Assembly (NCBI GenBank): GCA_030247885.1
Contig: JAPDRO010000002.1
Location: forward strand, 1,054,001-1,118,000
DNA length: 64,000 nt
Direction: 5' to 3'
Source: Taxawa tesnikishii (nom. ined.)
Lineage: Eukaryota; Ascomycota; Dothideomycetes; Dothideales
Position 1 is the stretch's first letter. Each line of letters begins with the position of its first letter. This document shows, in pieces, positions 1 to 57,274 of the stretch. The position numbers and the translations under genes are program-made. The notes below the pieces were generated by a model, which searched no databases, was not told the DNA's origin, and saw nothing but the letters and a program-made list of their open reading frames with translations.

Positions 1-1558
1 CTGTATCTAGCTCACCAACGGTACCCAGCTCTTCAGTCATCATCGGAGCTCCGGTCGCTATCACCCCAACTGCCGAAGCCGCTTCTTCTGCTGCGAGTGC
101 CGACCCAAGCAACGTCGTTTCTGTTGTGCTCCCTGACTCGTCGTCTACCGGCCAGGCTGCCGCAACTGGCATTGTTCCAGGAGCCTCTAGCCTGCTGAGC
201 AGTGTCCTCGGCGGTATCCTGCCAGGCGCTACCAGCAGTGTATCTGCCATTCCATCTGCACAGTCTACACGTGCAGCTGCTACCAACGACCCTGCCATCA
301 GCCTCTCCCTGGGCGTGCCTGTCCTCTCCAGCATCCTTCCTACTGTCAGCCTTTCCCTTGGCCTCCCAGTCTCCGCAGCCCTGCCAACCACAAGTCTTAC
401 GAACGGCGCTGGCCTGACTTCAGTGTCGAACCCCGCAGGATCTGGCGTAGCAGGAGCTCCCTCATCAGTCAGCCCATCAGCAGCCTCCGCTTCTCCACTC
501 CTGTCGATTAGCTTAAGGCTGCCTGTGCCCGTTGTCAGCCGCTCTGGCGCTGCTTCTGCTCCCGCTGCTACCGATGCTACCTCTTCTGCCGTTGCTGCTG
601 GTTCGGCCTCCTCTACTGCAGGTAGCCCACTCGGTGGCATCCTCTCCGGCGTTTCCAGTGTCGTCAGCAACATTCTGCCTAACCCTACCGTGGTAGGTTC
701 TGCGGCCAGCGACAACGCCGCACTGTCCTCTGCTGCCGGACTCTCAGCCAGTGGTATTTCGGGCGGTGTTTCGAGCGTTGTCAGCAATGTCCTGGCTAAC
801 CCTACCGTTGCGGTCTCTTCCGTCACTCCCAATGCCGCATCCCCTTCAGCTGGTGGTCTCCTCGGCGGTATCTCCAGTGCTGTCAGCAACATCCTGGCCA
901 ACCCTACTCGCGTTCCTTCCTCCGTCATTGCTGCTGGTACTTCCTCTGCAGTTGTGCAGGACCCGTCGGCTTCTTCGATCGCAGGCAATCTGCTCGGCGG
1001 CGCTCTTGGTGGTGTCTCCAGCGCCGTCGGGAACGTCCTGGTGAACCCTACGGGAGCTGTTACTTCTGCATCTGCATCTGCATCTGGTCAGCCGTTGCTG
1101 AGCGTTAGCTTGCGCTTGCCAATTCCTGTGGTCGCTGCCAGCGCTAACGCTGCTTCCGCTTCTGCTGCCACCCCTGCTGCCTCATCCAACCCGGCAACTG
1201 CATCTTCCTCCCCGCTGTCGCTGGTGGCGCTTCTGCTGTCCTATCTGTCGCTGGACCTTCTTCTTTCGCTACCGTTCGTGTTTCTTCATCAGCCGCCGCA
1301 CCCGCCTCCTCTTCCGCCGCTGGCGCATCCTCTTCGGAGCCATCCACGACCGCCATGGAAACTTCGGCCGCCACCGGTACCGCAGTACCAGCTTTCGAAG
1401 GCCCCTCCGTCTCTTTCTGTGGAGCCACGCTCGTGTGTGGAGCTACCAACCAGCCTGCCACGGTCACTGTGACCGCGACCAGCACCCTCAAGATTTACCT
1501 GCCCGTCACGGCAGCACCCACCGTCTCGGTGTTTGCGGCCAATGTGCTCAAGGCGTAA
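1..1558 (+). CDS. Ser/Ala-rich repetitive protein, 5' end outside window
   Basis: The reading frame is open from base 3, so the gene starts upstream of the window. The product is very rich in Ser, Ala, Val and Gly and has two kinds of internal repeat. Four copies of a GG[IV]SS[VA]VSN[IV]L.NPT-like unit lie near bases 630-690, 760-810, 855-910 and 985-1050. Two copies of LLS[IV]SLRLP[VI]PVV lie near 500-535 and 1095-1130, and shorter SLGLPV relatives lie earlier. The frame must change near the CCCC run at 1210-1213. After it, a second frame carries a plausible Ser/Ala/Thr-rich continuation and a C-terminus with two Cys and a TVTVTATSTLKIYLP segment, ending at 1558. One missing C in that run would explain this. 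No family is recognised. Low complexity suggests a wall or secreted protein, but no signal peptide or GPI signal is visible in the part present. Confidence 0.6.
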
Positions 1559-1823
1559 ACGTTTCCTTTGTTAGCATTGTATGAGTAGGGGCAGGATGTT
1601 GATCATCTAGGTTGCTTTGCGTTTGCATCACAGGGTTAATACATGGGATCATTACCTAATCTTGTTCTCCTTTGTCAACTACTAACGATCGCTAATACCG
1701 AATACCCGACTACTGTCAATCATTATAGTAGATAATTCTAATGTCAAATGACCAACTTACTACTACGAGCGAAGTGTAGAGCAATGTTCACAAACCATGT
1801 TTCCTGTAATTCGTAATGACGCT

Positions 1824-4036: not shown

Positions 4037-5509
4037 TTAATCATCGTCTTCCATTAACTCCGCCAGCTCCGCTTCCTCCTCAGCTGTCAACATTCCCTCC
4101 TCCTTCTTCTTCTTCTTCTTCTCCTCCTCCCCTTCTACTTCTACTCCGCCACTTTCCGCGCGCTCCGCCTCTTCACGTACCCTCTTCACCTCTTCGGCCT
4201 CCAAACTCCACACTCGGACCGTACCATCAATACTGACGCTGACAATCCTGTTTCCCCTCTCCCTTCGTCAGCGTCAGCCCCGTAACTTCTTCATAATGTC
4301 CACTATACACGCACGCCAGGTCTCCAGATGAAGCGTTCCAGACTCGAACTTCTTCGTCTCGGCAAGCGGTAACGACGAAGTTGTCTTGTGGGGAAAAGAC
4401 CACATCGCGCACGAAGTCCGGGTGCTGGAGTGTCGTATCGGATTCCCAGTTCCGCGACCGCACAAGGTGGGCCGCCGTCTTGTCCGCTGAGGCCGTCCAC
4501 AGATCACCTTCGCTATTGACGTCGCCTTCGAACCGTAGCTTGTTGACTGAAGTCGCGTGCGCTAGGATCGGAGCCGCAATCTCCTGCGCTGAAGTCTGCA
4601 TGATCTTCCACGATCGGATTTCGCGGTCGGACGAGGCGCTGAAGAGCACAATTTCCTCCGAGGAAGATGAATAGGGATCGATAGCAAGGTCTAGGATGCC
4701 GCGTATGTGACCTTTGAGTACATGTAGTTTTGCACCTGAGGCGACGTTCCAGACGATGATGTTTGCGTCTGCACCGCCCGAAATGAGGTAGGAGGTTCCC
4801 TTGAGGGAGAAACTGAGCACGCATTTTACGAAGTCGGTATGGCCGTTGGTATACCGACGAAGGGGCTGCCGGGTGCTGAGAGACCAGGAGTGAATTGTTT
4901 TATCCCAGCAGCCGGCAAACAAGATCTTTGGTTCGGATCCGGAGCTTGAGTACGAGATGGCCAGGCTGGTCAAAGGTGCTGTGGCGCCTGTGAATACTGT
5001 ACTTGTATCACCGGACTGCAGATGACGTTAGCCGTTGGTTAAGCACCAAAAACTACATATGTTCACAACGACAGGAAGAGTATATAAAACAAGTAAGGAT
5101 ATGGGGTAAAGGCGAATCGTGGGCGCTCACCTACATCCAAAACAACTCGTCTGGCGGTGCCTGCAGCTTCAGCGACAAAGACGGCGCCGTCATCGAAAGG
5201 ATCTGCATGTATGGCTAGGATCTTTGAAGGGAGAGCAATCGGATTGCCGTTCTTGTTTTTCGACTTGGCAGTTTTGCGTTCTTTGGTGGCGAGGGAGTCT
5301 CTGGAGTTGCTCCGTCAGCTGTTGCTCAATTCCTCCCTCTCTCTCCGACTTTTCAATAGATAAAGAACTAGTATGGTGTAGTATAAGCGAGAACGGCGGC
5401 TTAGGCTTCCATCTGTCTCCGACGCTGCAAAGAGATACTGGAGCATTCTTGGTACGTACGTCGTCTGGAAGAAATGCCCTGTATCGTTGGACCGTGACAT
5501 GGTGTGCAA
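4037..5509 (-). CDS. WD40-repeat protein with acidic/lysine C-terminal tail
   Basis: The best model is three exons (5509-5460, 5300-5135, 5015-4037), about 398 residues. Exon 1 begins MHTMSRSNDTGHFFQTT. Its junction to exon 2 is chosen because the phase fits and avoids an in-frame stop, so it is tentative. The body is a WD40 propeller: visible blades include LFAGCWDKTIHSWSL, SGGADANIIVWNV, FSASSDREIRSWKI, WTASADKT, TACRDEEVRVWN and DGTVRVWSL. The tail has a run of six lysines followed by an acidic end (AEEEAELAELMEDDD). The last blade and tail are in another frame. A net change of -1 or +2 bases is needed at the C runs 4254-4257 and 4261-4263, and two single-base undercalls would do it. WD40 proteins are scaffolds. 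I do not recognise the orthologue, and the partner and compartment are unknown. Confidence 0.75.
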
Positions 5510-6700: not shown

Positions 6701-8517
6701 ATGGCGTCTTCGTCCTCCTCGGCCGCAACTGCTCCCGACAATGGACTGAGGAAAACAGCCCCTGCAGCATCGGAAAGAGAAATTTCGGCATTCGATGCTG
6801 TTGAAGATGACACGGACCTGTACCATGGTCATCTCCGCTCCACGCACAAGGATGATGGCTTCACAAAGACGGATGCAAGAGACATGCAGCGCATGGGCAA
6901 GGCGCAGGAACTGAGGAGGAACTTCCGCCTACTTTCTACGATTGCTTTCACCGTCATCTTACAGGGCACATGGGAGGTGCTTCTGACCGCGACATACCAA
7001 GGTCTGGTCGACGGGGATTAGCAGGTCTGTTCTGGTCCTATATCTGGACTTTCATCGGCTTCTCCTTCGTCATGGCCTCACTTGCCGAAATGGCATCTAT
7101 GGCACCCACAGCTGGCGGACAGTACCACTGGGTCTCTGAGTTTGCTCCGCCACGCTGGCAAAAGAGTTTGAGCTACGTGACGGGATGGATGTCCACGCTG
7201 TCATGGCAAGCCGGTACTGCATCCGGACCATACTTGGTCGGAACAATGATCCAGTCAATGATCTATGTAAAGAAATATCCAGACGTCAAGGATTCAAACA
7301 GTATACTGACTTCTACCAGGTGAACGATCCTGATTACTCCGGAACCAACTGGCAAGGCACCCTGTTCGTCATTGCCATCACTATCGTGGTCTACGGCATG
7401 AACGTGTACGGCGCACGCGCCATGCCGGTCTTCCAAAATCTTATGTTGATTTTGCATGTCTTAGGTTCGTTCCGTCTTCTGTACGATTACACATACGAAA
7501 GCGAACTGACACATCCTAGGCTTTGTGACCATTGTCGTGTGCTTTTGGGTTCTAGCTCCTCGCAACACTGCAGCGACCGTCTTCACGCAGTTCACTAACG
7601 ATGGGGGCTGGAACAGTATGGGACTGGCTCTCATGGTGGGCCAGATTTCTGCGATTTACGCCTGTATATGTAAGTCACCTGTGTGAATGGCTGGACTTGG
7701 GCCGTATTTTGTTGACGACAGCACAGGTTCAGATGCAGCCGCTCACATGTCCGAGGAGATCAAAGATGCCGGGCGAACAGTGCCTAAGGCCATGGTCGGA
7801 TCATACCTTCTCAATGGAGCTCTGGGATTGGTGTTCCTCATAACCTACCTCTTCTGCATCACCGATCTTGAAGGGGCTTTGAACGACGATACCGGCTACC
7901 CACATCTCTTTGTCTTCCGCAATGCATTCAGTCTCCCCGCGACTAACACGCTCTCGGCTATCGTCATCATCCTAATCTATGCCGGCACTCTTTCCTACAA
8001 CATCTCAACGAGCCGCCAAACATGGTCCTTCGCTCGCGATGGCGGTCTACCCTGGTCCGACTGGATCGCCAAAGTCAATCCCAAACTCGAAGTCCCCGCC
8101 AACGCAGTCTTGGTCACATGCGCCTTCACCGTACTTCTCTCGCTCATCAACATCGGTTCCGACGCCGCTTTCAACGCCATCATCTCTCTCAACGTCGTTT
8201 CGTTGATGATCACGTACATGACGTCCATCGGCTGCGTCCTCTACCGCCGCATCTACCACCCTGAGCTGCTGCCGCCTGCACGCTGGAGTCTGGGCAGGTG
8301 GGGCGTGGCCGTTAATACGGTTGGAGTCCTGTATTCGACGCACGCGTTCTTCTGGTGCTTCTGGCCGAATTACACGCCCACAGACGCACCCGGATTCAAC
8401 TGGGCTAGTGTCATGTTTGTTGCCGTCTTGCTCTTCTGTGCTATTGACTACATGCTTCGCGCCAAGAAGGTCTACAAGGGCCCTGTCGTTCTCGTCGAGG
8501 GATGGAGGGGCGAGTAG
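6701..8517 (+). CDS. APC-family permease (choline/GABA/amino-acid transporter type)
   Basis: Exons are 6701-7266, 7320-7464, 7520-7669 and 7727-8517. Introns are 53-57 bp, two with GTAAAG/GTAAGT donors. The product is about 550 residues, normal for the fungal amino acid/choline transporter group of the APC superfamily. The start at 6701 (MASSSSS) is preferred over an upstream in-frame ATG at 6551. A soluble N-terminus is followed by about 12 membrane segments. Family landmarks are TWEVLLTATYQGLVDG in TM1, MASLAEMASMAPTAGGQYHW, YNISTSRQTWSFARDGGLP and a short cytosolic C-terminus. The frame breaks at GGGG 7013-7016, inside the usually invariant GLVDGGLAGLFWSY stretch; one more G restores it exactly. 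It is a plasma-membrane importer of choline, GABA or a related amine or amino acid. The substrate cannot be decided from sequence. Confidence 0.9.
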
Positions 8518-9379: not shown

Positions 9380-10731
9380 ATGGGCGCCTATATAAATGGG
9401 TTCTACGTTTTCGCGCCGGTGACCGCGACAGATCATGCAGGCCTTCTCTACGTTGCCGTCATCCTCAGTCTTGCATTTTCGGTTCTCACGTTGGCGACGA
9501 GGGTTCATATTAAGAGACGGATTTTTGGCTCGGACGATTGGCTCGTTGCTGGTGCTACGGTGAGTAGACTCCCTGCGGTGGTGAAGTTTCGCTGAATGTG
9601 TCCGAAGGTGGCTGCGCTGGCGCAGTACACCGCGCTCCTTGTCGGGTTGAACGATGGAAGTCTGGGAAGAGCAGTGCAGCTGCTGAGCAGCAGCCAGAAG
9701 GTCAAGGCTGGCAGGGTGAGTATTCTGGCATGTTGTTCCATGGACGGACGTGGTACTGACGTCTTGCGTAGACAATCATCGCGAGCGAGGTCATGTTCCT
9801 CATAGCAGTCGCATTATCCAAGTGCTCGATCGTGTTCTTCATCAGGCGACTCTTCACGCGAGACCATAAGGGCGCTTGGATGATCTGTAATGGGATGCAG
9901 GCGTTGATCGGAATATGGACAATTGTCTCAATGCTCCTGCTCACAATCGGTTGTGGCCCATCGTCCAAGCTTGCTGGAGACAAGTGTAACGGACAGGTAT
10001 ACCATCATACTCGAACCTTCCGTTACACAAAGGCTAAAAGTTCAGCAGTTAACACGCTGGACCGTCGTAGTCTCACTCGACGGGATCCTCGAGATCGTGT
10101 TCGTAGCTATGGCAGTATTTCTTATCACGCCGCTACAGATGGCATTCAAAATCAAGGCTGCCGTATGCCTGGCCTTCTCCTTCCGCCTCTTGTGCGTTCA
10201 CGCCCAAGCCTGCTCTCTCTCTCTACCACATAGTCCACCTTCGACTGACAACCCTCACAGCGTCGGCGTCTTCGCAGCCATTCGCGTACACTATGGTTTC
10301 CAGTTCGCACGTTCGGCAGACCCGGGCCTGGGCATTATCCCTCCACTGATATGGCAAGAAATTGAGCTCGGGTATGCCCTCATCTCCGCCACTATCCCCA
10401 CTCTGCGCTCCTTCATCCGCGGGTATGAGAAGGCGATGGGCTGGGATCCCTCTTATTCCGCCAGCAACAGCCACCAGCTGCAGTCGTTCCACCAACACAG
10501 CGCGCTGCGCTCGCAAACCCGTGACGACCCACTTGATGTGTTGAGGTCGGACAGACAGGATTACAAGGCGGATATCTGGGGTCAGCCGGAGCAAGGGAAG
10601 CAAGACCATAAGAGAGTGGGCAGCAGGGGAGTGGGGACAGTACGGATCCGATCATCAGGAGGGACGTCCAGATCCATGTGTCGTCGGAGAGCGCGACGAG
10701 AGGTCCGTGGACGGGCACTAAGACTCCCTGA
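9380..10731 (+). CDS. SAT4-type fungal rhodopsin-like 7-TM membrane protein
   Basis: Five exons (9380-9559, 9608-9715, 9772-9996, 10046-10191, 10261-10731) give about 376 residues with seven hydrophobic segments. The start MGAYINGFYVF is the first good ATG with a membrane segment directly after it. Family landmarks are FGSDDWLVAGAT after TM2, AQYTALLVGLNDG, a Cys-containing loop (GCGPSSKLAGDKC), a WTVVVSLDGILEIVF helix, and RVHYGFQFARSADPG before the last helices. The tail frame switches at GGGG 10626-10629 or 10633-10636. With one more G it ends in DPIIRRDVQIHVSSESA, matching the short IRR/IRK-V-Q tail seen in this family; otherwise the frame runs to 10762 as basic noise. These proteins resemble the Pth11 seven-helix fold without the CFEM domain. 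Ligand and signalling role are unknown. Confidence 0.85.
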
Positions 10732-22661: not shown

Positions 22662-24696
22662 TCAACTTTGACACTTTGGTAGGCTGTTGTTCCTCATCAT
22701 GCTTCTGGTCCCTGCTCGCTTCTTGTCCCCCGACCACATCCTGTTGTGTGCGAACCCCGGTACTTGACCCGGCTCCTGCTCCTTCGCCGATAGTCTATCG
22801 CTGCCCGGTTCCTGTTCCTTCCTCAATTCTCGGATCAGCTCGTCCATCTCCCGTTCTTGACCGGCCGCATTGTTGGCTACCACGTCCAGCTCCGTGACCG
22901 CTGCCAGAGACTCTCGCGAAGGCGCCTTGTCAATCTCCGAGAACCTTCTCATCTTCAACCGCTCCGGCCACCGTAGGAGATAGCTCAAGCGCTTGCCTTC
23001 TCCGCCTTCTGAGGCTCTGCGGGCACTGGCGCCGGACACGCGAACGCTCGATCTAGTGGCCCCCGGCGCTGGGTCAACACCGTTCTCTACAGTATCTTCG
23101 CTCGGCGCATCTACAGTCGCTTGGATCCGTTCCGGCCAACGCAGGATCCAGCTTAGTCGCTTGCTTGCTGTGAGATCGTTCGAGGGCTGCTCTAATCGCC
23201 TCTTGTCCTCTTCGCTGACGGGCACATCCTCGAGCTCTGACACGTCCATCGGAGGTTCTTCCTCTTCGGTATGCTCCGTCACTACGATGTGAGGGACGCT
23301 CTCTCGTTTGTTGGACACACCGTCCTTACCCAACGTCTCAGGGCTGTCTTTTTCCGGAACGGTGGGGAGATGCAGTTCATCAACGACTGAAGGCCTGTAG
23401 GGCCGATAACCTCCAGGAGGAGGACCTTGGGTCTGCCGTCGGGCCCCTCGCGGGCCGTGGGCAGACGGCTGAGCCCTTTGTTGGCCTTGAAGAGGCTGTT
23501 GAACCCTCTGCTGGCCCGGCGGCCCCTGGAGAGGCGGCTGACGTCTCAGAGGGCCTTGTCCAGGTGGCGTGACCATCCGTGGTAGCGGTCTACGATACGG
23601 AGCATTGGTCACTGCTCCTGCAGGCATCCCTAGCTTTCCTTTCGGTGGAACTGCAGGAGCATGAGATGGGAACGAAGCCCAAAGAGAAGGCGCGCCATTT
23701 GCTTGATACGGTTCAGGACTTTTAGTAAGCTCTTCTGGGTGGTACACGTCGGACTTTTGCAAGGTCTCATGTGGAAGAGGATCTTGAGGTAGAGCATCAC
23801 TTTGGTTGGAACCTCGTGTCTTGTCTGCAGGAGATGCTTTTGGCCTGTTCCCGAGTTCCCGAATATGGACTCTGGATGAGACTCCACAAAAGGGGTGCGT
23901 GGTTCCTTTTCTTGACGCCCTGCTTCCCGCCGAACAAGGAAGAAAACTCCCAAGGCTATGAGAGCAATACCACCGATAATCCCGATGGCGATTCCTGCTT
24001 TGGCTCCTCCGGACAGTGACAGAGGGGTGTATAACCGGATGTTGGAGTGTTGGTTGGTGTAGTAGACGGAGTAAAGGTACGGGCTGGCGTTGTAGACTTC
24101 GACGATGACTTCGGTGGCGAGCTGGTTATACCAGTACTGGATGCTGTGGCGTAGGATAATGAAACGATTGATGTAGTTCCAGGTAGAACGCTTGTTGTAA
24201 TGTCTGCCGAACTGGTGTCCGCGAGCATTGATGTGGCATCGCTGTCAGATGCAGCGGTGGACGGATCCGTATCGTATGCAGTACTGGTTTGCGTATCATC
24301 AGAACTCGTTATTGGATCGGGCGAGGGTGTGTTGTTTGCAGTATCCGCCGAATCAGTGCTGCTCGGCGTAGCAAACTCGACTGATACAGTGCTTGTGACT
24401 GGCACTGCGCCTGGCGCATTGCTTGATGGTGCAGCGGCGTCTGAGGATTCAGGGGCAGCCGTGGAAGGCGAAGAATCTGCGGGTGATGTTGGCTCGGTCG
24501 ATGTGGTAGGGGAGTCCGAGGACGCTGGCGATGCGTCGGCTGCGGACGATGTAGGATCAGGAGTGTTGCTCGTAGGGCTTGCCAATGGTGCAGATGTGGA
24601 AATTCCGGACGTACCGGTGCTGGAACCAGAAGAGCTGCCCGGGTCCGGTGAAGCGGTTGCACCATCCGTATCGGTGTCATCAAAGGGACTGTCCAT
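22662..24696 (-). CDS. Mucin-like single-pass membrane protein with repeated cytosolic motif
   Basis: From 24696 leftwards the protein begins with about 215 residues of Ser/Thr/Pro/Ala-rich, presumably O-glycosylated ectodomain. A single membrane helix follows (AGIAIGIIGGIALIALGVFF, then RR) and then a cytosolic tail of about 450 residues. The tail has a Gln/Pro-rich stretch near 23420-23560 and two copies of a motif, KRLSWILRWPER and KRLSYLLRWPER, near 23150 and 22980. Two frame changes are needed: one extra G in GGGG 24024-24027, just before the helix, and one base near the CCC runs at 23850-23860. The frame is also open upstream of 24696 to about 24805, so the true start and signal peptide are not resolved. 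The layout resembles fungal wall-stress sensors (Wsc/Mid2-like), but no WSC domain is seen. The function is an inference only. Confidence 0.7.
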
Positions 24697-32185: not shown

Positions 32186-32232
<47 letters not shown>

Positions 32233-33015: not shown

Positions 33016-33056
<41 letters not shown>

Positions 33057-39148: not shown

Positions 39149-40383
39149 ATGCTGCCCGAGTACGAGGGTGTGAGCGTTGTGCTCCTCGATATCGGTGAGT
39201 GAATCCAGAACATTTCGGCCAGTCCATAGACGTTGAGAAGACGAGATGGGTCTGTCTTCCACGTTCGGCCTCCTACTGACGCTGCTGGATGTGTTTGTAG
39301 AGGGCACGATATGTCCGATCTCATTCGTCAAAGAAACATTGGTATGAGAATAAAAATTTTGTCACTTTTTTCCACGTTCACTTCCATGCCACTGTCCACC
39401 GCTTTCCTCTCTTTGCTTAACCTGCCTCGCATTTTCCGTTTCTCTATCCATGCGACAGTGCCTAACAGCCACGCGGCCCTGCAAGATCTGCAGATAAGAT
39501 CCTCTCAAGATAGCACGCATTCCGTCCCATCTCGGGCGATTCTAAGTCCGCATTCGCTTGTTTCAGCAACCGCTACATGCTAGCGAAATAGCTCGCTTTG
39601 CCTCGTGCAGCCACCCGCATCTAGCTAACCCGACCGCCAGTTCCCATACGCGCTGCAGGCTCTACCAAACGTACTCGCCGAGCGCTGGGATGCGCCTGAC
39701 TTCAAGCCCTATCGGGATGCCTTCCCAGAAGAAGCGCGCGCGTCACCTGAAGCGTTCGAGGCGCACGTCAAAGACCTTACTGCACGTGATGTGAAAGCAG
39801 CGTACTTGAAGAATCTCCAAGGTGACCGGGTCCCTCCCTTTCAAGATACCCTTTCACTGGTTGAATAGACAGACTAAGCGCGATTAGGCTATCTATGGCA
39901 ATCAGGCTACGAAAATGGTACATACTCCAGCCCTTTCTTCGCGGACGTGTTGCCTCAGCTGCGCTATTGGAAAGCTTCGGCCTTGCAGCTGGTCATCTAC
40001 TCCTCCGGCAGCGTCTTCGCGCAGAAGCTCCTTTTAGTCATGTGCAAGATTCCACTTCTGCTGACTCCAAAGCTACGGTCGACCTCAGAGATCTCGTCAG
40101 TGATTGGTTCGACACCACCAATGCGGGCCAGAAGACCGAGGCGAGCAGCTATGGCAAGATAGCTGCAGCGATCAGCAAACGACCGGACGAAGTCCTGTTC
40201 TTTAGCGACAACGTGAAGGAAACCAACGCTGCCGAAGAAGCGGGCTTGAAGGCGGTTGTCGTGGATCGTCCGGGTAATGCACCCTTGACAGCGGAGGATA
40301 GACAGAGGTTTAAGGTAGTGGAGTCGTTGGAGGAGATTAGTCTGTCGCCCGCCAAGATTGATGCGCGGTTCTGGAAGCGGTAA
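39149..40383 (+). CDS. UTR4: Enolase-phosphatase E1 (methionine salvage)
   Basis: Four exons (39149-39194, 39301-39341, 39641-39821, 39888-40383) give 254 residues. The second intron (299 bp) is long for this genome. It is a HAD-superfamily enzyme that converts diketo-methylthiopentyl-1-phosphate, via enolisation and dephosphorylation, to the acireductone in the methionine salvage pathway. The catalytic loop is VVLLDIEGTICPISFVKETL, spread over two introns. Motif II is VIYSSGSVFAQKLL, and later motifs are DWFDTTNAGQKTEASSY and EVLFFSDNVKETNAAEEAGL. One T is missing at TTTT 40033-40036; with it QKLL joins FSHVQDSTS and the reading is continuous. The short first exons were placed by protein fit and exact phase. 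It lies tail to tail with TRM9, 165 bp apart. Confidence 0.93.
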
Positions 40384-40548: not shown

Positions 40549-41352
40549 TTAGCGGGACCTCTGGGCAATAGCCCACCAGTTATCCTTTTCGTAACCAGCT
40601 TCCAGAACAGTACCGCCAGCGGCCTCAACGTCGTGTTCCAGCTCCCCTTCCTGTACAGATGATAATAGCGATGGAATGTCCGATCAGCGCTAGGCTCAGC
40701 GTCTGACCCTAGAGCTGTGGCCACGTCTCCCCTGTTCGACTTCTGCTTGTCCTTCTTGCCCTTCATCACCCATGGCACCATGACATCCTGCTCGTGCCCC
40801 TCGTCCCACCCCTCCGACTATCCTTCTGCTCCAGCGCCCACACGTACACCAGGGCCTTGCCCCTTCGCTCGTTCCTGTCGTAGCAGGCTTGAGTGTCTCG
40901 AGGATCGTTCGCACGGCCTGGATCCGTCTTTCGGATGTCGAGAGATGATGCACCACAGCAATTGAAATGGCAAAGTCGAAGTAGGCTGTCCGATGCGGCA
41001 GAGAGAGTATATCGGCGACAACGGCAGCATGGGGCTGGTGTTTGTTCGCGATTGCGGTGAGGTTGGTGGATCGGTCAGAGCCCACGATAAAAAGGTCGGG
41101 ATTCACGGCGAGGTATTTGCCATTTCCACACCCTATGTCAAGACCCACGGAGCCTTGTGGGAGTTCCTTTAGGAAGCGTTCGATGATTGGCCATGGCTGT
41201 GGAGGTGTTAGAGGTGCGGAATCGAGAGGGTAGGCGATATTGGCGCGGACCTGGATTCACACCTTGTATCTTGTCGAGGAGAAGTGCGAGGCTATTTGCT
41301 CGTAGACGGAATGGACGTGCTCCTCCTCATACCGCTCGTGATGAGTCTCCAT
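40549..41352 (-). CDS. TRM9: tRNA wobble-uridine carboxymethyl methyltransferase
   Basis: Two exons (41352-41263, 41196-40549) give 246 residues. Exon 1 reads METHHERYEEEHVHSVYEQI and exon 2 opens PWPIIERFLKELPQGS. Trm9 methylates 5-carboxymethyluridine at U34 of certain tRNAs, completing mcm5U, and works with Trm112. The SAM-binding loop is VGLDIGCGNGKYL. Downstream come FDFAISIAVVHHLSTSERR and the conserved end RYYHLYRKGELEHDVEAAGG, then EKDNWWAIAQRSR. Three single-base gaps break the exon, at CCCC 40860-40863, CCCC 40809-40812 and CCCC 40644-40647. With each one base longer, the family segments ALVYVWALEQKDSRRGWDEG, EQDVMVPWVM and the C-terminus are all recovered and the total is an exact multiple of three. 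Confidence 0.93.
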
Positions 41353-44232: not shown

Positions 44233-46926
44233 TCAGTACTCTGTCAACTTCAATTTCTTGCCCACTTCCCTCCTCTGCACCACCTTCTCGCTCGGTCTCG
44301 CCTGTCCCTCATCCTTGGCCTTGAGCGCCTGGAGAAGCATTCCGGCATCGAAGAAGCCATCTGTTAAAAAAAAACAAGGTCAGCCAACTGTCCACCTTGT
44401 TCTCTCACGGCAGAGAAACGAAGAACGAGGGAAGGGAAGGGAAGGGAAGGGAAGGGAAGGGAAGGGAAGGGACTTACATCCACCCAACTCGTCATCACTG
44501 GGATCCACACTCTCCATCTGCAGCGGCGTCCTGGCGCCCGTGCCGTCAATAAGCCGGCCCCTACTCTTCACTCTTTGCGACTTTGGCCGCAGCTTCTTGC
44601 GCTCCTCCTCGGCTTGCCTCGCCTTGCTCGCGTTCTTGTCCGTGCTCGTACCCCTCCTTTGCGTCTGCCTCAACAGCTTCCTGATCTCCAGGAAGTAGCT
44701 CTCCAGCGCGTCGATATACCGCTGCGTTTGTCTGTGCTTGCTGCTCGCACAGATGCTCACACTGCCGTCTTTGATGATGTACCCGATACCGAACCCTTCG
44801 GCAGAGGTCGGGCCGAAACCGAACTGACGCAGGGACGGGTTGCCGCAGTTGGAGGTTGAGAGAATGGTGTTGTTGATCTTGTCCCAGCCCGAATCGGCGA
44901 ACAGGGCGGGCATACTGTGGGGCTCGTTGCGGCGCGGAGAACGGGAGACGGAGCCCTCTTCGCTGAGGAGGCTGCTGGTGCGCCCGGGGCTGCCGACGAT
45001 GCTGTCCTCTTGCGGGCTCGAGTATCCATTGCTCATGCTATCGCCGTTAACGCTCTCCTCTCGCTCGGCGCCCTCTGCGTCAATCATGCGCTGCCAGACG
45101 CAGAACAGAGCATACAGATGCCTATCCTGGCCCTGTGCTTTCGCGCACTCCTTGGTGATGTCCGTGTGCTTCTGGCACGCCTTCTTGAGCGCGTCTATTT
45201 TCATCGTGGACGGATTTTCGCCCCAGAACGTGCGTACAAAATTTGCACTCTCGGGTGTGACGGAGCGAATCGCCTCCGTACGGCCGTGGTAGAAGATCTT
45301 GGTCATTGCCGGTTCGTAAACGCATTCCATGCGTCCGTACAGCCCGTAGTAGGCCGCCTGGAACGCCATCTGCACGAATGCGTCCGGAGAGAAGCCCATA
45401 CTCGTCATGAAGTTTTTGCCGTAGTGGCCGAACTCGAGCGTTGCAAATTCGTTCTGCTGGATCAGATCTGCAAGCCGTGTTTCAGCGAATCGTAACGCGG
45501 TCGAAAGTTCAGGAACCATGTCCCATTCGAGTTTGTGCGGCGTGGTGGAGACATCGCCAAAGGACTTGGGGTCCCGTTTGGCCGGATCAGGGGATATGGA
45601 GGCCCAGAGCGAAGGTGCTTGACCGTTGATGGTGCGGGCAAAACGAAGAATCGTGTCGGTGTAGACGTCCGAGGCAAAGCGGAGAACAGTGTGGCCGTCA
45701 ACACCCGTGTGTTCGAAGTTGATACCCGCAGATCCGTTCTTGCAAACGATGATCTGAAGCTTGTCGTACCAGCGGTTCGTGCAGGTGCCGACCTGGACGC
45801 CCCTTTCGATCTTCGAGGTTCCGCAAAGCATGTTTCCACACAAGCTTGCGCTGTCTGTCGGTTCAGTGTAGTCCAGGCAAAGCACAAACAGCGCCGAATC
45901 GACAATGTTGAGGCAGTCAGAGTTGTTTGAGCCTTCTTCACGTGAGAGCACGTCCCGAAGGCCAGACCATACTTTGCGATTCTCCGTGGTAAGCACACCT
46001 AGTGCGCCTTTGGCGAATTCTTGAACCGGCGTTTCCTGAGCGTCGGCAACAATGACTTGCAGGTTCAGGGTGACGTCTTTTTCGGTCATGATCAGGTCAT
46101 TGTTGTCATCAAGGACGTCGAACCAGTAAAACTGTCCCCGTGCAAGAACCACGATGTGCTTGGAGCTCGGATCCTGGCCGATTTGGCAGCCATTTTCGGT
46201 GGGAATTCTTGCTGTTCCGAACAGTCTCGAATATTGGTACATGTCGAGAGGTTGCCCCCGTAGCGTATCTGGTGGAAGCTCTTCTTTCCTGACAGCGCGT
46301 ACAAAAGAGAGTGCGGAGACGACAAGGGAAGCAGCTCGAGTCACCTGATCGTTTCTTGCAGGCGTTGGGTCATCCTCAAGCAAGAAAAAGGGGTTGAGGT
46401 TAAGTACAACTGATTGGTCATAGTTGAGGTAAGAGTCGTACCCTGATTGATGTCAGCTCAAGAATGCTCCTTTGAAGGGATCTGCAGCCTGCGGATCCCA
46501 GATCTGGTTGGCCCTTACAAAATTGCTCAATGTAGCTGGATTTGCCAGTAGCGTACTTTTTCAGTCTCTCCTGGAGGTCAGGACCGTCGACCCTCAAAAA
46601 TTCATGTACAGCGGATTCTGTATCGGCACGCTCTCTAGCCGTCTGCAGTGGGTCTAGTGCAGCCAAGTACTTTTGCAGCTGCTTTCCAGATCTGGAATTG
46701 GCAGCTTGGGGAGCTTGTCCTGGGCAGCAAAGGTGATGCCAGGCTTGGAATCCGGATTCTTGGACTCCTTTAGCGGTTCCTGTTCCTTCTTTGTGAATCC
46801 ATCGGTGGTTTCTTTGGCGGCTTCTTCCGAGCGCTTAGGCTCGGTAGTTGCTGCTTCGTTCTGCTTATCTGCAGATGCCAAAGCGTTGTCCAGCCCCGTC
46901 GGCATTGTAAATGTTCTGACAGCCAT
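44233..46926 (-). CDS. Carnitine O-acetyltransferase
   Basis: Three exons (46926-46519, 46442-44478, 44360-44233) give 833 residues. Exon 1 ends SSYIEQF and exon 2 opens WYDSYLNYDQSVVLNLNPFF, the invariant substrate-tunnel region of choline/carnitine acyltransferases. The catalytic His is in FEHTGVDGHTVLRF. Later landmarks are YGRMECVYEPAMTKIF, the RTEAIRSV carnitine-binding loop, and GFGPTSAEGFGIGYII. The last exon supplies YGFFDAGMLLQALKA after the GG at the end of exon 2. The C-terminus (KLKLTEY) is not a peroxisomal signal and the N-terminus is not a clear presequence, so a cytosolic Yat/FacC-type enzyme is likely, moving acetyl units as acetylcarnitine during growth on acetate or fatty acids. 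One base is missing at TTTT 46671-46674 (plus strand), inside SCKKYLAALDPLQ. Confidence 0.93.
44430..44471. repeat. (GGGAA)n repeat inside an intron
   Basis: About eight GGGAA pentamers on the plus strand (TTCCC on the coding strand), starting directly after the GTAAGT donor of the last carnitine acetyltransferase intron (44361-44477). Confidence 0.95.
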
Positions 46927-48148: not shown

Positions 48149-49543
48149 ATGACTGACCTGGCCCACGTCTTGCCCGACTTCGACTCCAAACCATTCTCGC
48201 ATGTTCTCCCGTCGCTGGAGAAGGCCTACGTTACAACCACCGACCTTCTTACTCTCGACGCCTTCGATGTCGCCAAACGCGCCCAAGTGCCTCCGCCCGA
48301 GCTGAGGAAACTCGCAGATGCCTTGCTGAAGGCATTACACGCGCCGTTTCCTGGTGCAGACGTGCAGAACGAGCAACCAAAGCCGTCAGAGCACCCCGAT
48401 CATGAATGGGCAACCATCAGTACACTGGACGAAGGCGTAGACGCTGCGCTGGGCGGAGGCTTCCCTGTCGGTTATCTGAGCGAGATCACGGGCGAAAGGT
48501 ACACGCCGGTCCCTTCGATCCTACAATGCACGCACAAGCTAACACTCTACTCCCAGCGCAGCAGGCAAGACTCAGCTCCTGCTTTCCCTCCTCCTCGCCG
48601 TACAACTCCCCCACCATATGGTCTCTCCAAATCGGCTCTCTACATCTCAACTGAAGCGCCTCTCCAAACAACACGCCTGAGCCAGATTCTCTCCGCCAAC
48701 GCCCTGATCTCTCGCTTCTCCTCTTCCGAGCGACCCTCCCTCTCCGCAATCCAGAGCACCCACCTCCACGACCTCGAAGCACAGGACCATATCCTACGCT
48801 ACCAAGTCCCTGTGCTGATCCGTCGCGCCAACATCGGTCTCGTGGTTCTAGACTCCGTCGCCGCCAATTTCCGCGCCGAGTTTGAGGTTCAGAACAAGAA
48901 CAGAAAGAGTGCAGAGGCGTTCGCGAAGCGTAGTGCGCAGCTCGTCCAGCTGGGATCTCTGCTGCGCAATCTGGCACGGAACGAAGGCGTTGCCGTCGTC
49001 GTCGCGAACCAAGTCCTAGACCGGTTCGCACCCGTCGCACAGGCATTCGAACATGCATCCCAGCATCTGAGCCAGAAGAGTCATGGACAGTTTGAAGACA
49101 AGGCATCCAACTCCGGCCGCTCAACGCCTCTCTCGGCATCCGAAACAGGGCAGCAAAACGTCGGCAGTACGCATCCAGAGGCCATAGGAACCGTTCTTAG
49201 TACGAACGATCCTCTGTCCCTGGACCACCAACAACGCTTCTTCACCGGTTGGGGCGACACGCAGTTCGCACGGAACATGAAGACGCCCTCATTGGGCTTT
49301 ACCTGGACCAACCAGATTGCAGCTCGCGTAGCACTGCTCAAGGACCCCATCTACAAATCACAGGATTACGTCCTAGGCCCCGAGAAGGAGATCGTCGGAT
49401 GGCGGCGATACATCAAAGTCGCCTTCGCCGGCTGGGCCGAGGACCGGAATGGCGAGAGGGGCGGCGTCGGCTTTGAGATTTGGGAGGGCGGAATCAGGCT
49501 TCCCATTGATGAGGGAAAGGAGGAGAATAACGGATCAGCGTAG
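48149..49543 (+). CDS. RAD57: RAD57-type Rad51 paralogue
   Basis: Two exons (48149-48498, 48557-49543) give 445 residues. The 58-bp intron, with branch GCTAAC, falls inside the P-loop: joining gives GESAAGKTQLLLSLLLAVQL, a proper Walker A (GxxxxGKT). Walker B is IGLVVLDSVAANFRAEF. The N-terminal helical region precedes the ISTLDEGVDAALGGGFPVGY lead-in typical of RecA/Rad51 paralogues. ANQVLDRF and LGFTWTNQIAARVAL form the L2/C-terminal core, and a Ser-rich insert lies near residues 310-350. Rad57 works with Rad55 to help Rad51 filaments form against Srs2 during homologous recombination. One C is missing in CCCCC 48608-48612, directly after the P-loop helix. RAD57 fits better than RAD51 or RAD55 by length and lead-in; XRCC3 is the animal counterpart. 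Confidence 0.9.
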   Translation: MTDLAHVLPDFDSKPFSHVLPSLEKAYVTTTDLLTLDAFDVAKRAQVPPPELRKLADALLKALHAPFPGADVQNEQPKPSEHPDHEWATISTLDEGVDAALGGGFPVGYLSEITGERYTPVPSILQCTHKLTLYSQRSRQDSAPAFPPPRRTTPPPYGLSKSALYISTEAPLQTTRLSQILSANALISRFSSSERPSLSAIQSTHLHDLEAQDHILRYQVPVLIRRANIGLVVLDSVAANFRAEFEVQNKNRKSAEAFAKRSAQLVQLGSLLRNLARNEGVAVVVANQVLDRFAPVAQAFEHASQHLSQKSHGQFEDKASNSGRSTPLSASETGQQNVGSTHPEAIGTVLSTNDPLSLDHQQRFFTGWGDTQFARNMKTPSLGFTWTNQIAARVALLKDPIYKSQDYVLGPEKEIVGWRRYIKVAFAGWAEDRNGERGGVGFEIWEGGIRLPIDEGKEENNGSA

Positions 49544-50703: not shown

Positions 50704-53700
50704 CTAAGAGGCAGCGCTGACAAGCGCGCTCGGCGCACCCTCAACCTTGTTCAGCAACTCATAAGGTGGACGCTTGACGATACCACCCGTGACAGGCAGC
50801 TGAGTGCCGACGCCAGTAAGGAAGCTGTCGACGTCGCGTGCGCACATGCGGCCCTCGTTGATACCCCAAACGATGAGGGATTGACCACGACGGCAGTCAC
50901 CCGCAGCATAGACGCCCTTGAGGTTGGTGTTGTACTTTCCTGGTGGAGTTTTGACGTTTTTGCGCTGGTCTTTCTCAACAGCACCAGCAAGCACGCGCTC
51001 CTCGGGACCCAGGAAACCCATGGAGAGGAGGACGAGGTCGGCGGGGAAGAATTGCTCGCTTCCCTCGATCTGCTTCATGTCCCATCCACCCGAAGCAGAC
51101 TTGGTCCACTCGACGCGAACGGTATTGATACCCTTAACATGGCCATTGCCATCGTCGACAAAGTCCTTAGACATAATACTATATAGTCGTTAGCAGACAT
51201 GGTAAATCAGTGCTTAGAGGAAACCTCTTACCAGTATTCTCTCGGGTCTCGGCCGCTGTGAGTCTTGACCTCGGAGTGGCCGTAGTCGACACGGTAGATA
51301 CGGGGCCACTGCGGCCATGGGTTATCACGGGCACGTTCTGGAGGAGGCTGAGGCAGCAACTCGAAGTTAACAACAGACTTGGCACCATGGCGGACAGAGG
51401 TACCAATGCAGTCGTTACCAGTGTCACCACCACCAATGACAACAACATGCTTGTCCTTAGCAGAGATGTACTCTCCATCAGAGAGACCCGAGTCGAGAAG
51501 AGACTTGGTGTTGCGGTGCAAGAACTGCATGGCGAAGTGAATACCGTCCAGGTTGCGGTTGGGAATTGGCAAGTCTCTCGCAACTGTGGCACCAGTGGCA
51601 AGAACGACAGCATCGTGTCTCTCGCGAAGCGAATCGAGAGTGACATCACCCTCGCCAACATGGCAGCCGGTAACGTACTCGACACCCTCAGCACCCATGA
51701 AGTCGACACGACGCTGAACGACGTTCTTATCAAGCTTCATGTTGGGAATACCGTACATGAGCAGACCACCGACGCGGTCAGACCTTTCGTAGACAGTAAC
51801 CTTGTGGCCAGCTTTGTTGAGCTGGTCAGCGCAGGCAAGACCTGCAGGCCCGGAACCGATAACGGCAACAGTCTTGCCGCTGCGATACTGCGGAGGAGAT
51901 GGTACCATCCAGCCCATCTCAAAGCCACGGTCGATGATGGCACACTCGATTGACTTGATGCCCACAGGATCTTCATTGATGCCCAACACACAAGCGCCTT
52001 CGCAAGGGGCAGGGCAGACACGACCAGTGAATTCCGGGAAATTGTTGGTCATGAGCAACCGGTTTAGAGCATCCTGCCACTGGTTCGCAAATACTAATTC
52101 GTTCCACTTGGGAATGATGTTGGAGATAGGGCAACCAGTGTCAGATTGGCAGAACGGGACACCACAGTCCATGCAACGAGCGGATTGATACTTGAGCTCG
52201 TCCTCGTTGAGACGCGAAGAGAGCTCCTGCCAGTCACGAGTACGGGTCTTCGCGCTGCGGTACTTCTCGGAACGGCGCTGGTACTTCATGAAGCCGCGGG
52301 TCTTATCGAGAACAAGAGCAGACCTCTTCTTCTCGGCCTTGCCGTCCTGGACACTCTCCTCAATATCGAGCAGGTCATCCTTCTTTTCTCACGAGCCTCA
52401 TGCTCGTGTTGCTTCTTCTTAGACTCCTCGTGCAGGTCACGCACTGGGTTGCCTGGAAGGATGGGAAGTGGGTACTCTGCCTTCTTGGCCTCAGCAGCCT
52501 TGGCAGCCTCCTCCAGCATGACACGCTTGTAGTCGGTAGGAAGAATCTTGACGAAGTGTGGCAGAGCACGGTTGAAGTCCAGGAGGATACGAGCAGCCAG
52601 TTCTGAGCCTGTGTAGTGGTGGTGGTCTTCAATCAGGCCGCGAAGGAAAGCGATTTCGGTTGGGTCCTCAAGGCCGGAAAGCTCGACCATCTCCGGGTTG
52701 ACCTTGCTCTCGAAGTCGTTGTGCATGTCGAGAACGTAGGCGATACCACCGGACATACCAGCAGCGAAATTACGACCGGTCGAGCCAAGAATGAGCACAC
52801 GACCACCGGTCATGTACTCACAACCGTGGTCACCAACACCTTCAACAACGGCAGTAGCGCCGGAGTTGCGGACGGCGAAGCGCTCGGCAGCCACACCACG
52901 GAAGAAACATTGACCGCTAGTAGCACCATACAAGCAGACGTTGCCGACAAGGACATTCTCCTCAGCCTTGAAGACGGCAGATCTTGGGGGTAGACAATGA
53001 GACGGCCGCCAGAAAGACCCTTGCCCACATAATCGTTGGCGTCACCCTCAAGTTCGAGAGTAATACCAGGAGCAAGGAAAGCACCAAAGGACTGGCCAGC
53101 AGAGCCCTTGATGTTGGCGTGGATGGTGTCTTGAGGCAGACCCTTCTCACCGTACCTTTTGCTGATGTGGTAGGAGAGGGTTGCACCGAGAGCACGGTCA
53201 GTGTTGACAATGTCGCACTCGATCCTGCATGGAAGACCCTTCTCAAGAGCAAGCTCGGACTCAGAAATGAGCTTGTTGTCAAGGCGGACGTGCAGACGGT
53301 GGTCCTGCTTGCGGACATTGTAAGTAGCCACGCCAGGACGGAGGGAATGAGCGGGAGTCAGGATGAGAGAAAGGTCGATGTTCTCAGTCTTTGCGTTACG
53401 CAATTCCTCACGAACGCGGAGCATCTCGGTGCGTCCAACCATCTCGTTGACCGTGCGGATGCCGAGCTTGGCCATGATGGCGCGGAGCTCGTTGGAGACG
53501 TAATAAAAGAAGTTGATAACATGCTCGGGTGTACCCTTGAACTTCTTCCTCAGCTCCGGGTCCTGGGTGGCAATGCCAACTGGGCATGTGTTGAGGTGAC
53601 ATTTGCGCATCATAATACATCCCATGGCGATCAGAGGGGTGGTAGCGAAACCCCACTCTTCGGCACCCAGCAAACAGGCGATAGCGACATCGCGACCGGT

Positions 53701-56700
53701 GCGAAGTTGACCATCAGTCTGGACAACGACACGACCACGCAGATCGTTGAGAACCAGAGTCTGATGGGTCTCGGCGAGACCCAGTTCCCATGGAAGACCG
53801 GCGTACTTGATACCAGTCCAGCGAGAAGCACCAGTACCACCGTCATGACCGGAAATCAGGATATGATCAGCCTTGGCCTTGGCAACACCAGAGGCTACGA
53901 TACCGACACCAACCTCAGATACTAGTTTCACGGAAACGCGGGACCGAGGATTGGAACACTTGAGATCATAGATAAGCTGCTTCAGGTCCTCAATTGAGTA
54001 AATGTCGTGGTGAGGTGGAGGCGAGATAAGGCCGACACCGGGAGTGGAGTAACGAGTGTGGGCAATGGGGCCGACAACCTTGTGGCCGGGCAGCTCACCA
54101 CCTTCTCCAGGCTTAGCGCCCTGGGCCATCTTGATCTGCAGCTCGTCGGCATCGGCAAGGTAGTGGGAAGTCACACCGAAACGGCCGGAGGCAATTTGCT
54201 TGATGGCAGAGCGCATGGTGTCACCATTCTCCAGTCGCTTGCTACGCTCAGGGTCTTCACCACCTTCGCCGGTGTTGGATTTACCACCAAGACGGTTCAT
54301 TGCGATGGCCAATGTGGAATGAGATTCCATAGAGATGGATCCGTACGACATGGCACCTGTCACGAAACGACGAACAATTTCAGTCCAAGGCTCAACTTGG
54401 TCGATAGGAATGGGGCTCCGTTGCTCGAAGTCGAACTCGAGCATACCACGCAGAGTGCAGTTCTTGATCTGCTCATGAGCAGCCTTCGCGTAAGCCTCGT
54501 AAGACTTGTCGTTCTTGGTACGGACAGCATCTTGGACATTGGCGATGGACGTCGGGTCGTTGACGTGAGGCTCACCACCGTCACGCCAGTGGTATTCACC
54601 AGTCTCGGCAAGACCTGGAACCTCGAGGATGTTGCGAGTTGGGAAACCCTTTTCGTGAAGAGCAAAGGCATCCTGAGCAATGAGCTCAAAGGTCATGCCC
54701 TTGATACGGGTAGCCGTACCGGTGAAGCACCGGTCGACAACGGAGTCATCGATACCGAGAGCCTCGAAAATTTGGGCACCCTTGTATGACTGCAAGGTAG
54801 AAATACCCATCTTGCTCATGACCTTCAGGATACCACCGTCGCAGGAGTGCTTGTAGTTATCAATAAGCTGGTCCTTGCTAAGCTTCTTCCTGATAAGACC
54901 TTCACGATCCATCTTCAGGATGCACTCAAGTGCGAGGTATGGGCAGATGGCATCAGCACCGTAGCCGATAAGGACACACATGTGGTGGACTTCACGAGCC
55001 TCAGCGGTCTCAGCCATGAGGGCAACCTGGGATCTCCACTTGTTGCGGACAAGGTGGTGGTGGACCATTCCGGTGGCCAACAAGGTAGAGACGGAGACAC
55101 GCTCAGCGGAAGTGGCGCGGTCAGAAAGAATCAGGAGCTTGTGGTTGTTCTCAACAGCTTGGGTAGCGGCATCACAGATGCGGTCAAGGGCGTTCATATA
55201 ACCCTGAATACCCTCCTTCTTTGGGAAGGTGATGTCGATAATCTCGACAGTCCAGTCACGGTAAACGTCGTTAATACTCTTGAGCGCGTTGAGCTCTTCG
55301 ATGGAGAGGATGGGAGACGGCAGAAGCAGACGGTGGCATTGCTCCTGGCTCATCTCGAGGAGGTTGCCCTGAGGACCAACATAGGCCTCCAAGGACATGA
55401 CAACAGCCTCCCGAATAGGGTCAATGGGAGGGTTGGTGACTTGAGCGAAGAGCTGGCGGAAATACTCGTAGAGCAGACGTGGCTGCTGGGCGAGGCATGC
55501 CAGAGGCGCGTCGTTACCCATGGAACCAAGAGCCTCCTTCGAGTCTGCGGCCATAGGTCCAAGAAGCAGAGAAACCTGCTCAAGCGAGTAGCCAAAAGCC
55601 TTTAACCTTGGGTCTTCCTGGACCTTGGTCAAGGTAAGAGTGTGCGAAAGGTCAGTGCCCTTGTCTGCAAGCTGGCTGTAGACGCCGTTCATGGTAAGAA
55701 GCTGGTTCTGGATCCATGACCTGAAGTCCTGACGCTGAGAGACAGTCTGCTTCAGCTCAGTGTCGTCCACAATTCTTCCGGCGACAGTGTCGACCAGCAA
55801 CATCTTTCCTGGCTGAAGACGGCCCTTCTGCACAACACGCTCAGGGTCGATTTGGATGGTTCCAACCTCAGAAGCGCAGACAATGCGGTCATCGTCCATG
55901 ATGTAGTATCTACAAGGACGAAGACCGTTACGGTCGAGGTTTGCACCGCAGTATCTGCCATCGGCGAAAGTGAAAAGGGCAGGTCCGTCCCATGGCTCCA
56001 TCATGCAGGCAGCCCATTCGTAGAAGGCTTGCTTTGCTGGGTCCATGGCGCGGTTACCTTGCCACGCTTCTGGTACCATGAGCATGACAGCTTCTGGTAG
56101 AGATAAGACGCCGTTGATAGTAAGGAGTTCCAGAACGTTGTCGAAAGCAGCAGAGTCCGAACCGCCATCCTCGATGATGGGGTAGAGCAGATCCAACTCG
56201 TCTCCAAACAAGTCTGACTTCAGCACACCCTCTCGTGCGCGCATCCAGTTCTTGTTTCCGCGCAAGGTGTTGATTTCACCATTGTGGGCAGCCCATCGCA
56301 AAGGCTGTGCACGGTCCCAAGATGGGAAAGTGTTCGTGGAGAATCGTGAGTGGACAAGGGCAAAGTGACCTTCGTAGTCAACGTTTGTCAGGTCGTAGTA
56401 ATACTCGTAAACCTGGCTAGGCGACAGCTGTCCCTTGTAGACAATGTTTCTGTTGCTCAGGGAGCACAGATAGAACCAGTTGTGCAGACCAATAACGTGG
56501 GTGGCACGCTTGCGCAGCACGTAAAGCTGGCGCTCAAAGTGTGCCTCATCGAACTCGGACTCGAAAGACTCCTTTGGCTCCCTCCCATCACCGTACGCAG
56601 ACTTGAGTACAACGAATGGTTGAAGGATGATTGGCTCTCTCGAAGCTGCAGCAGGTCCGAGGAGGGTAGAGTCCTTTGGCACCTCACGCCACCCCAATAT

Positions 56701-57274
56701 CCGCAGGTCCAGCCCGTCTGCCACCTCTTCGAATGTGTCGAGCGTTTGCTTCAGAACCTCAGTGTCCGGCTTGAAGAACACGTTGCCAGCGGCGTATTGC
56801 CCCTGCTTCGGCAGCTTGAACCCTTGCTCCCTCTCAAAGTTCTTCAAAAGAACTTGTGTGGAATCGAAGTCATGACACCAGCGCCATCACCGTCTCTTGC
56901 GTCAGATCCAACGGCACCACGGTGGGTCATGTTGCAAAGGAGGCTCTTTGCTATCGAACTGTCAGCTTATATGTACTCGGGAGTCGGCTCATAGGTTCCT
57001 ACCATCGCTGACGATCTTGTGGCTCGCCTTGCCCTTGATGTGGCTGCAGCATAGTCAGTAACTAGTCGACAAGGACTCGGCGCGTTCACTTACGCGGCGA
57101 AACCGACACCACAGGCATCCTTCTCAAGCTCCGGGTCATACAGACCCTGCTTCTGGGGAGCGCTCCAGCCCATGACTTGTTGTCGGGCGTGTCCTCGTAG
57201 GGATAGATGTTCACAGGCTCATCCTCCTGGATGATGTTGACTTGTTCGGTTTCGGCGAAAGACACCCGACCCAT
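50704..57274 (-). CDS. GLT1: NADH-dependent glutamate synthase (GOGAT)
   Basis: Four exons (57274-57094, 57043-57003, 56950-51233, 51178-50704) give 2139 residues. It makes two glutamates from glutamine and 2-oxoglutarate, the second step of the GS-GOGAT ammonium route. A propeptide precedes the nucleophile Cys in [11 protein letters not shown]. The class II amidotransferase has [20 protein letters not shown] and [11 protein letters not shown]. The FMN synthase barrel has [34 protein letters not shown] and the 3Fe-4S cysteines in [15 protein letters not shown]; the GxGxG beta-helix follows. The fused small subunit has [16 protein letters not shown] and [10 protein letters not shown] (4Fe-4S), a FAD loop [15 protein letters not shown], an NAD loop [13 protein letters not shown] and [14 protein letters not shown]. 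Four single-base gaps, at 57155-57158, 56846-56849, 52986-52990 and 52384-52387, break the frame. With each run one base longer the length closes exactly. Confidence 0.97.

Follow-up and report, generated by a model that had tools for sequence, protein, structure and literature searches.

Do the many interrupted reading frames at this locus record mutations in the living fungus, or do they reflect errors in its assembled sequence? The window analyzed here, a 64-kb stretch of DNA, came from the desert soil-crust fungus Taxawa tesnikishii JES_119 (Dothideomycetes), and a first-pass annotation had reported a missing base at each of 19 short runs of identical bases, with a net loss of two at 4254-4263. 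When the sites were examined by three-frame reading or tblastn, all 19 proved to be frame changes in the missing-base sense and none was refuted; 18 lacked one base and 4254-4263 lacked a net two. The sites were spread over 14 genes, which corrects the earlier figure of about twenty broken frames. The breaks are most likely assembly errors in genes that are intact in the living organism. No tRNA (ARAGORN) and no Rfam match at the gathering score was found in the window.

Nine of the 19 sites (grade a) were anchored by collinear pieces of unbroken homologues lying in successive frames. In GLT1, on the reverse strand, four minus-one changes were located at 52384..52387 and 52986..52990 (five homologues each), at 57155..57158 (four of five homologues), and at 56846..56849, where residues 1-28 of the homologue P0001 were read in one frame and residues 29 onward in the next, with one base shared. 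Outside the junctions, P0001 and the window disagreed at 35 residues, and thus P0001 represents a relative and not the same isolate. TRM9, also on the reverse strand, carried three minus-one changes within about 220 bases, each at a 4-base run (40860..40863, 40809..40812, and 40644..40647), as determined from the tiling of the protein P0121 and the frames; the protein was otherwise identical to P0121. In UTR4, on the forward strand, the minus-one change was placed at TTTT (40032..40036) by the frames and by alignment to two PDB chains, the upstream frame aligning with residues 115-164 of 1yns and 110-158 of 2g80 and the downstream frame with residues 154-251 of 2g80. The run itself occupies 40032-40035, one base before the 40033-40036 given earlier. 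The ninth site was in a WD40-repeat gene on the reverse strand (4254..4263, net two bases fewer), where the protein P0242 tiled two frames with two bases shared. After residue 1, P0121 and P0242 tiled the window without a mismatch, which indicates that these genes are intact in the same fungus or in one nearly identical to it. The two proteins narrowed their four shifts to intervals of 7 to 10 bases, every one of which overlapped a 4-base run.

The WD40-repeat gene also illustrates the consequence for annotation. The deposited gene model P0241 (H2203_001280) skips 52 nt (4262..4313, reverse strand): its pieces stop at 4314 and resume at 4261, while P0242 is translated straight across. This gap is probably a spurious intron, and the prediction that automatic annotation would suffer was borne out in this one deposited model examined. 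There is only a slight chance that some of the listed breaks are themselves short introns and not indels. A frame-shift hidden Markov model (HMM) preferred introns at 1432-1481 and 4247-4313, and probable true introns were present at about 51190-51230 in GLT1 and at about 48490-48555 in RAD57. However, an intron at 4254 would remove a conserved WD40 stretch through which P0242 is translated, and the bases shared at the junctions in GLT1 and TRM9 leave no room for one.

Five further sites (grade b) were supported by a protein family or motif. In an amino-acid permease gene on the forward strand, the PF13520 match began at profile position 28, about at the minus-one change in GGGG (7013..7016), in the downstream frame. 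The haem-binding motif of a P450 gene, which is how we read the split motif, was divided between two frames by a minus-one change at 17208..17211 (reverse strand), with PF00067 matched upstream. In an M43-type metallopeptidase gene on the forward strand, the minus-one change at CCCCC (31859..31863) separated PF05572 positions 67-105 in one frame from a weak match to positions 127-149 (E 0.22) in the next, and an HMM call fell 4 nt from the run. The minus-one change at 46671..46674 (reverse strand) was assigned to the N-terminal part of a carnitine acyltransferase gene from PF00755, the HMM, and the frames: PF00755 started at profile position 10 near the site in the downstream frame, and an HMM call lay 11 nt from a run. 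The piece presumably carries the N-terminal motif of the family, and it gave only weak PDB matches. In RAD57, alignment and frames placed the minus-one change at CCCCC (48608..48612, forward strand), beyond the probable intron; the exon on the 3' side of this intron contains the Walker A motif.

The remaining five sites (grade c) were judged from amino-acid composition or open reading frame (ORF) continuity, all in the minus-one sense. They were CCCC at 1210..1213 (forward) in a Ser/Ala/Thr-rich gene, by composition only; 10626..10636 (forward) in a fungal-rhodopsin-type receptor, within its C-terminal tail, with PF20684 upstream and composition only past the site; 22087..22090 (forward) near the C terminus of a patatin/DUF3336 lipase, with PF11815 and PF01734 upstream and a tail read from ORF continuity and codon scores; 24024..24027 (reverse) separating a Ser/Thr-rich stalk from a membrane segment, by composition, where the HMM placed changes at 23768 and 24197 and not at 24024; and GGG at 27158..27160 (forward), upstream in a SWIRM-domain gene, by ORF and codon scores with PF04433 downstream. 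A Pfam search with 10 short flanking ORFs gave no match for seven, a weak M43 match for one, and weak, chance-like matches to unrelated families for two. It is improbable, though conceivable, that the errors conceal a few genuine mutations or strain-specific gene losses at the five composition-only sites.

A codon model applied to 120 nt on each side favored the expected change at 13 of the 19 sites but did not favor it at 1210, 10626, 17208, 24024, 40860, and 48608. Sites 40860 and 48608 have another shift or an intron nearby. Runs of at least 4 bases (n = 484) made up 3.2% of the window; the run at 27158 has only three. The runs of three to four bases at some of the shifts are short for Nanopore homopolymer error. 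Clustering of the sites within the window was not clearly above chance, with five gaps of <620 nt observed versus 3.3 expected.

The same signature was found elsewhere in the genome. Minus-one junctions at GGGG or AAAA were present on three other contigs, in genes for a CCT subunit (C1), an HSP70-family protein (C3), and the second-largest subunit of RNA polymerase (C7). Seven families gave 114 matches (105 in six of them plus 9 sugar-transporter matches without neighbors), and only three clear one-base junctions were detected among these, fewer per kilobase than in the window. The HMM, run de novo as a rough counter and not as proof, was used to scan the window and 20 other 10-kb stretches and returned 39 missing-base and 10 extra-base calls. 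Of the missing-base calls, 23 of 39 lay no more than 15 nt from a run of at least 4, compared with 1,826 of 8,400 random coding positions (P of about 6e-7). Twelve calls fell in the 33.5 kb of coding sequence of the window and 37 in 99.6 kb elsewhere, slightly unevenly across the 20 other stretches (P = 0.04); together with the genes on the three contigs, the calls elsewhere indicate that the frame shifts are genome-wide and not local. In the window, 6 of the 19 listed sites were recovered de novo (within 20 nt), along with 6 other calls. On 96 kb of uninterrupted ORFs, its training set, the HMM made 18 calls (16 missing-base and 2 extra-base). False positives, real but hidden shifts, or method bias may account for them, and they make the absolute rate of the HMM and part of its imbalance unsafe. 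Pfam was used to check flagged genes outside the window. An MFS gene had a 32-nt junction, read as a non-intron because it is too short; a sugar transporter had a 104-nt gap, which may be an intron; and in a third locus (L010), one of eight pieces matched, weakly and below the cutoff. A GH28 gene (L027) was also flagged and checked in this way. C/G runs became scarce at greater lengths: those of at least 5 reached 6 bases in 9 of 159 cases versus 38 of 238 for A/T runs, a comparison internal to this assembly.

It is very unlikely that the breaks are real in this strain, whether as pseudogenes or through a mutator lineage that loses bases from runs. The deposited sequence does carry the breaks, and homopolymers are natural indel hot spots too. 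However, decaying pseudogenes would show other disabling changes and spare essential genes, whereas the CCT and RNA polymerase subunit genes, which are essential, were broken likewise, and TRM9, despite three shifts, was otherwise identical to P0121. Near-identical sequences were intact. The earlier argument that essential genes would not carry such breaks holds for these two subunits but is weak for GLT1, its original example, which is dispensable in baker's yeast. In addition, BUSCO completeness for the same isolate was higher in the Illumina row (97.4%) than in the Nanopore row (92.9%) (PMC11195213).

Several observations supported homopolymer undercalling, as proposed in the first-pass annotation: relatives are unbroken, the shifts are in the missing-base sense and fall in runs, and other contigs show the same signature. 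The chemistry that the annotation named was not supported. Pyrosequencing (454 or Ion Torrent) typically leaves homopolymer deletions, and 454 resembles the present case in its run-length undercalls, although its chemistry is different and is not named for JES_119. That it undercalled these runs is extremely unlikely: the available text of PMC11195213 names only Illumina and Nanopore, and a 2.8-Mb contig fits long reads. According to its methods and Table 2, which confirm the use of Nanopore, JES_119 was sequenced with Nanopore (194.58x) and Illumina (25.38x) and assembled as a hybrid by MaSuRCA, and the ONT data were base called with guppy 3.4.4 (PMC11195213). No consensus polishing step was found in the available text; in the main text, "pilon" and "medaka" do not occur and "polish" occurs once, referring to Exonerate (PMC11195213), and these word counts suggest a consensus without effective short-read polishing. 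The paper also mentions an Illumina-only SPAdes assembly and gives BioProject PRJNA631111, which includes the Illumina reads of JES_119 (PMC11195213).

We are nearly certain that residual Oxford Nanopore base-calling errors in the hybrid assembly explain the frame breaks. The indels lay in homopolymers, judging from the P0121 and P0242 intervals and the HMM proximity, with one listed site at a run of three; they were mostly base losses, at all 19 sites and in the HMM calls, subject to the similar imbalance on uninterrupted ORFs; and the shifts were absent from P0121 and P0242, which come from the same or a near-identical organism. The short runs appear to have arisen in base calling, presumably on flow cells of the older R9 type, and the hybrid assembler apparently let the run-length errors through. 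Nanopore signal, which resolves run length poorly, would leave short runs, mostly of C or G, one base short; thin Illumina coverage (25x) would fail to override the deep Nanopore coverage (195x), so that the consensus kept the short lengths. Every shortened run would then shift the frame by one base, and gene callers would cut the gene short or span the break with a false intron.

Ribosomal frameshifting, programmed or tolerated, occurs in Euplotes, and we know of no such system in Dothideomycetes. Shifts at runs and mainly in one sense would suit such a mechanism, but it is practically inconceivable here, as the near-identical P0121 and P0242 lack the shifts, relatives were unbroken at all 9 sites tested where a shared shift site would be expected, the runs differ from one another in base and in length, and the window holds 484 runs of at least 4 against 19 listed sites.

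Nanopore homopolymer errors are an ordinary, well-known kind of sequencing error, and the breaks in this window are useful as an assembly warning. In the fungus Drechmeria coniospora, indels likewise occurred mainly in homopolymers, and conserved single-copy genes were frameshifted and missed by BUSCO, but there polishing added more insertions than deletions, whereas losses in a hybrid assembly were seen here (PMC7500977). The Nanopore errors described with Homopolish are also mainly homopolymer indels that shift frames and survive polishing, although those data were mostly bacterial and Nanopore-only, with no hybrid assembly in the available text (PMC8011154). Scaled up from the 19 sites in this 64-kb window, the 29.4-Mb assembly would contain very roughly 9,000 detectable breaks in coding sequence; this figure extrapolates from a single window taken as typical, and the rate was lower in the conserved families searched. 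A 377-residue deposited model can seem complete yet omit a conserved stretch. For users of the Taxawa tesnikishii genome, checks are needed before gene counts, missing genes, protein truncations, or odd short introns are given a biological reading.

At all 19 short homopolymer runs where the first-pass annotation had placed frame breaks, frames were read, and none of the breaks was refuted. Together, they affect 14 genes. Support comes from relatives or families at 14 sites and from composition or open reading frame (ORF) continuity only at the remaining five (1210, 10626, 22087, 24024, and 27158). With a codon model covering 120 nt on each side, the expected change was favored at 13 of the 19 sites and not favored at 1210, 10626, 17208, 24024, 40860, and 48608. 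The test was blunted at 40860 and 48608 because another shift or an intron is close by, and 40860 was nevertheless fixed by alignment with P0121, an unbroken TRM9 relative.

In TRM9, the window passes through all three frames and back to the first, and P0121 is continuous. Residues 2 to 200 of P0121 align to the window as four mismatch-free tiles, with one base shared at each of the three junctions. For the WD40 gene, residues 2 to 261 of the unbroken relative P0242 tile the window in two pieces sharing two bases; thus, the break is a net two, as originally proposed for 4254 to 4263. Runs of at least four bases make up 3.2% of the window, and all four junctions placed within 7 to 10 bases by these two relatives overlap one. 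Five unbroken homologues of GLT1 gave collinear pieces in changing frames (tblastn). Four of the five reached 57155; the other, P0001 (98% identical), starts downstream of it. The GLT1 gap from 51231 to 51189 resembles a normal intron. Against window positions 56847 to 52987, P0001 has 1 residue difference over residues 29 to 798 and 25 over residues 799 to 1315, a mosaic that may reflect a diverged strain or chimerism in the public contig. For UTR4 (plus strand), the solved UTR4 structure 2g80 is matched over its residues 110 to 158 by the upstream frame and over 154 to 251 by the downstream frame.

Family or motif evidence agrees at five further sites. RAD57 has a probable intron followed by the shift at 48608, and the frame change in the P450 gene splits the haem motif. 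The M43 peptidase has a family match on both sides of its break, the second piece being weak (E 0.22). The permease and the carnitine acyltransferase complete the five.

A frame-shift HMM was run without the site list. It made 12 calls in the window (33.5 kb coding) and 37 in 20 other stretches (99.6 kb coding). Combined, 39 calls were in the missing-base and 10 in the extra-base sense. A run of at least four lay no more than 15 nt from 23 of the 39 missing-base calls, versus 1,826 of 8,400 random coding positions; 6 of the 10 extra-base calls were also near such runs. In a simulation with 69 of each, the HMM recovered 50 deletions and 55 insertions, so it is not blind to insertions. It picked up just 6 of the 19 sites on the list, and it made 18 calls (16 missing-base and 2 extra-base) in 96 kb of uninterrupted ORFs, the same ORFs used for training. 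The scan shows the breadth and direction of the shifts, not exact numbers. A frame change is called at 12495 even though it falls inside an uninterrupted 521-residue HET-domain (heterokaryon incompatibility) ORF at 10986 to 12551. In another 10-kb stretch (C12:150001-160000, minus strand), seven missing-base HMM calls lie within 2 kb (approximately 5866 to 7808), adjoining an uninterrupted ORF of 1,249 residues; the errors may be patchy.

C or G forms 15 of the 19 listed runs, as chosen in the first pass, versus 237 of all 484 runs of at least four (p ~0.008). Across 264 kb, C/G runs of at least five number 159, of which only 9 extend to six; the A/T counts are 238 and 38. In this comparison, made within the one genome, the fall-off is what C/G shortening would produce. 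No G runs of six or seven were seen in the 264 kb; three are exactly eight long (L011:1148, L011:7345, and L013:6829, in other 10-kb stretches).

The genome searched comprises 34 contigs and 29,367,862 bases. The window spans 1054001 to 1118000 of contig C12. Its WD40 protein has a public record, H2203_001280, under Taxawa tesnikishii (nom. ined.), an unclassified member of the Dothideales, on a contig of 2,079,929 bases, exactly as long as C12. The best named relatives of the GLT1 piece are Elsinoe, Elasticomyces, and Aureobasidium (89 to 90% identity). According to the portions available of a preprint on strain JES_119 (PMC11195213), the published assembly has 38 scaffolds and 29,383,553 bp (longest scaffold, 2,828,030; N50, 1,232,081). 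The genome searched is 15.7 kb shorter, with four fewer sequences, and the printed longest scaffold and N50 match contigs C1 and C34, respectively. Nanopore (194.58x, guppy 3.4.4) and Illumina (25.38x) reads were assembled with MaSuRCA 3.3.4; thus, homopolymer undercalling was the right kind of error, and pyrosequencing, to which it had been attributed, the wrong chemistry. In the main text, "pilon" and "medaka" are absent, and the sole "polish" refers to Exonerate. For BUSCO completeness, the preprint lists 97.4% under Illumina and 92.9% under Nanopore. Frame-break errors are not discussed in those portions of the preprint, the sole relevant paper found for Taxawa.

This type of error is already well known. 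Frameshifts from homopolymer indels in Nanopore consensus are described in the accessible parts of PMC8011154 and PMC9262707. The damage is of the same kind as in a Nanopore assembly of Drechmeria coniospora, whose authors warn, in the text available, that BUSCO overlooks short indels (PMC7500977).

The first-pass warning that annotation would suffer was borne out in the one deposited model compared, WD40 model P0241 (H2203_001280). It skips 4262 to 4313, so that a conserved WD40 stretch present in P0242 is missing.

The same signature was found elsewhere by reading match coordinates in seven families, with 3 junctions among 114 matches. One shared-base junction each occurred in 24 CCT, 20 HSP70, and 4 RNA polymerase matches; none was recognizable in 14 aldehyde dehydrogenase, 19 AMP-binding, and 24 proteasome matches, and 9 sugar-transporter matches had no neighboring pairs. 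In another 10-kb stretch, a sugar-transporter match is broken by a gap of 104 nt across which the profile positions continue (L026:2835-2938), a candidate intron or error. The three junctions lie on contigs C1, C3, and C7, all at a run of four and all in the minus-one sense. Thus, the frame breaks are neither local nor gene-specific. GLT1, on which the earlier argument from essential genes had relied, is not essential. Yeast requires its CCT subunits and second-largest RNA polymerase subunits for viability, and real losses in these genes are therefore unlikely.
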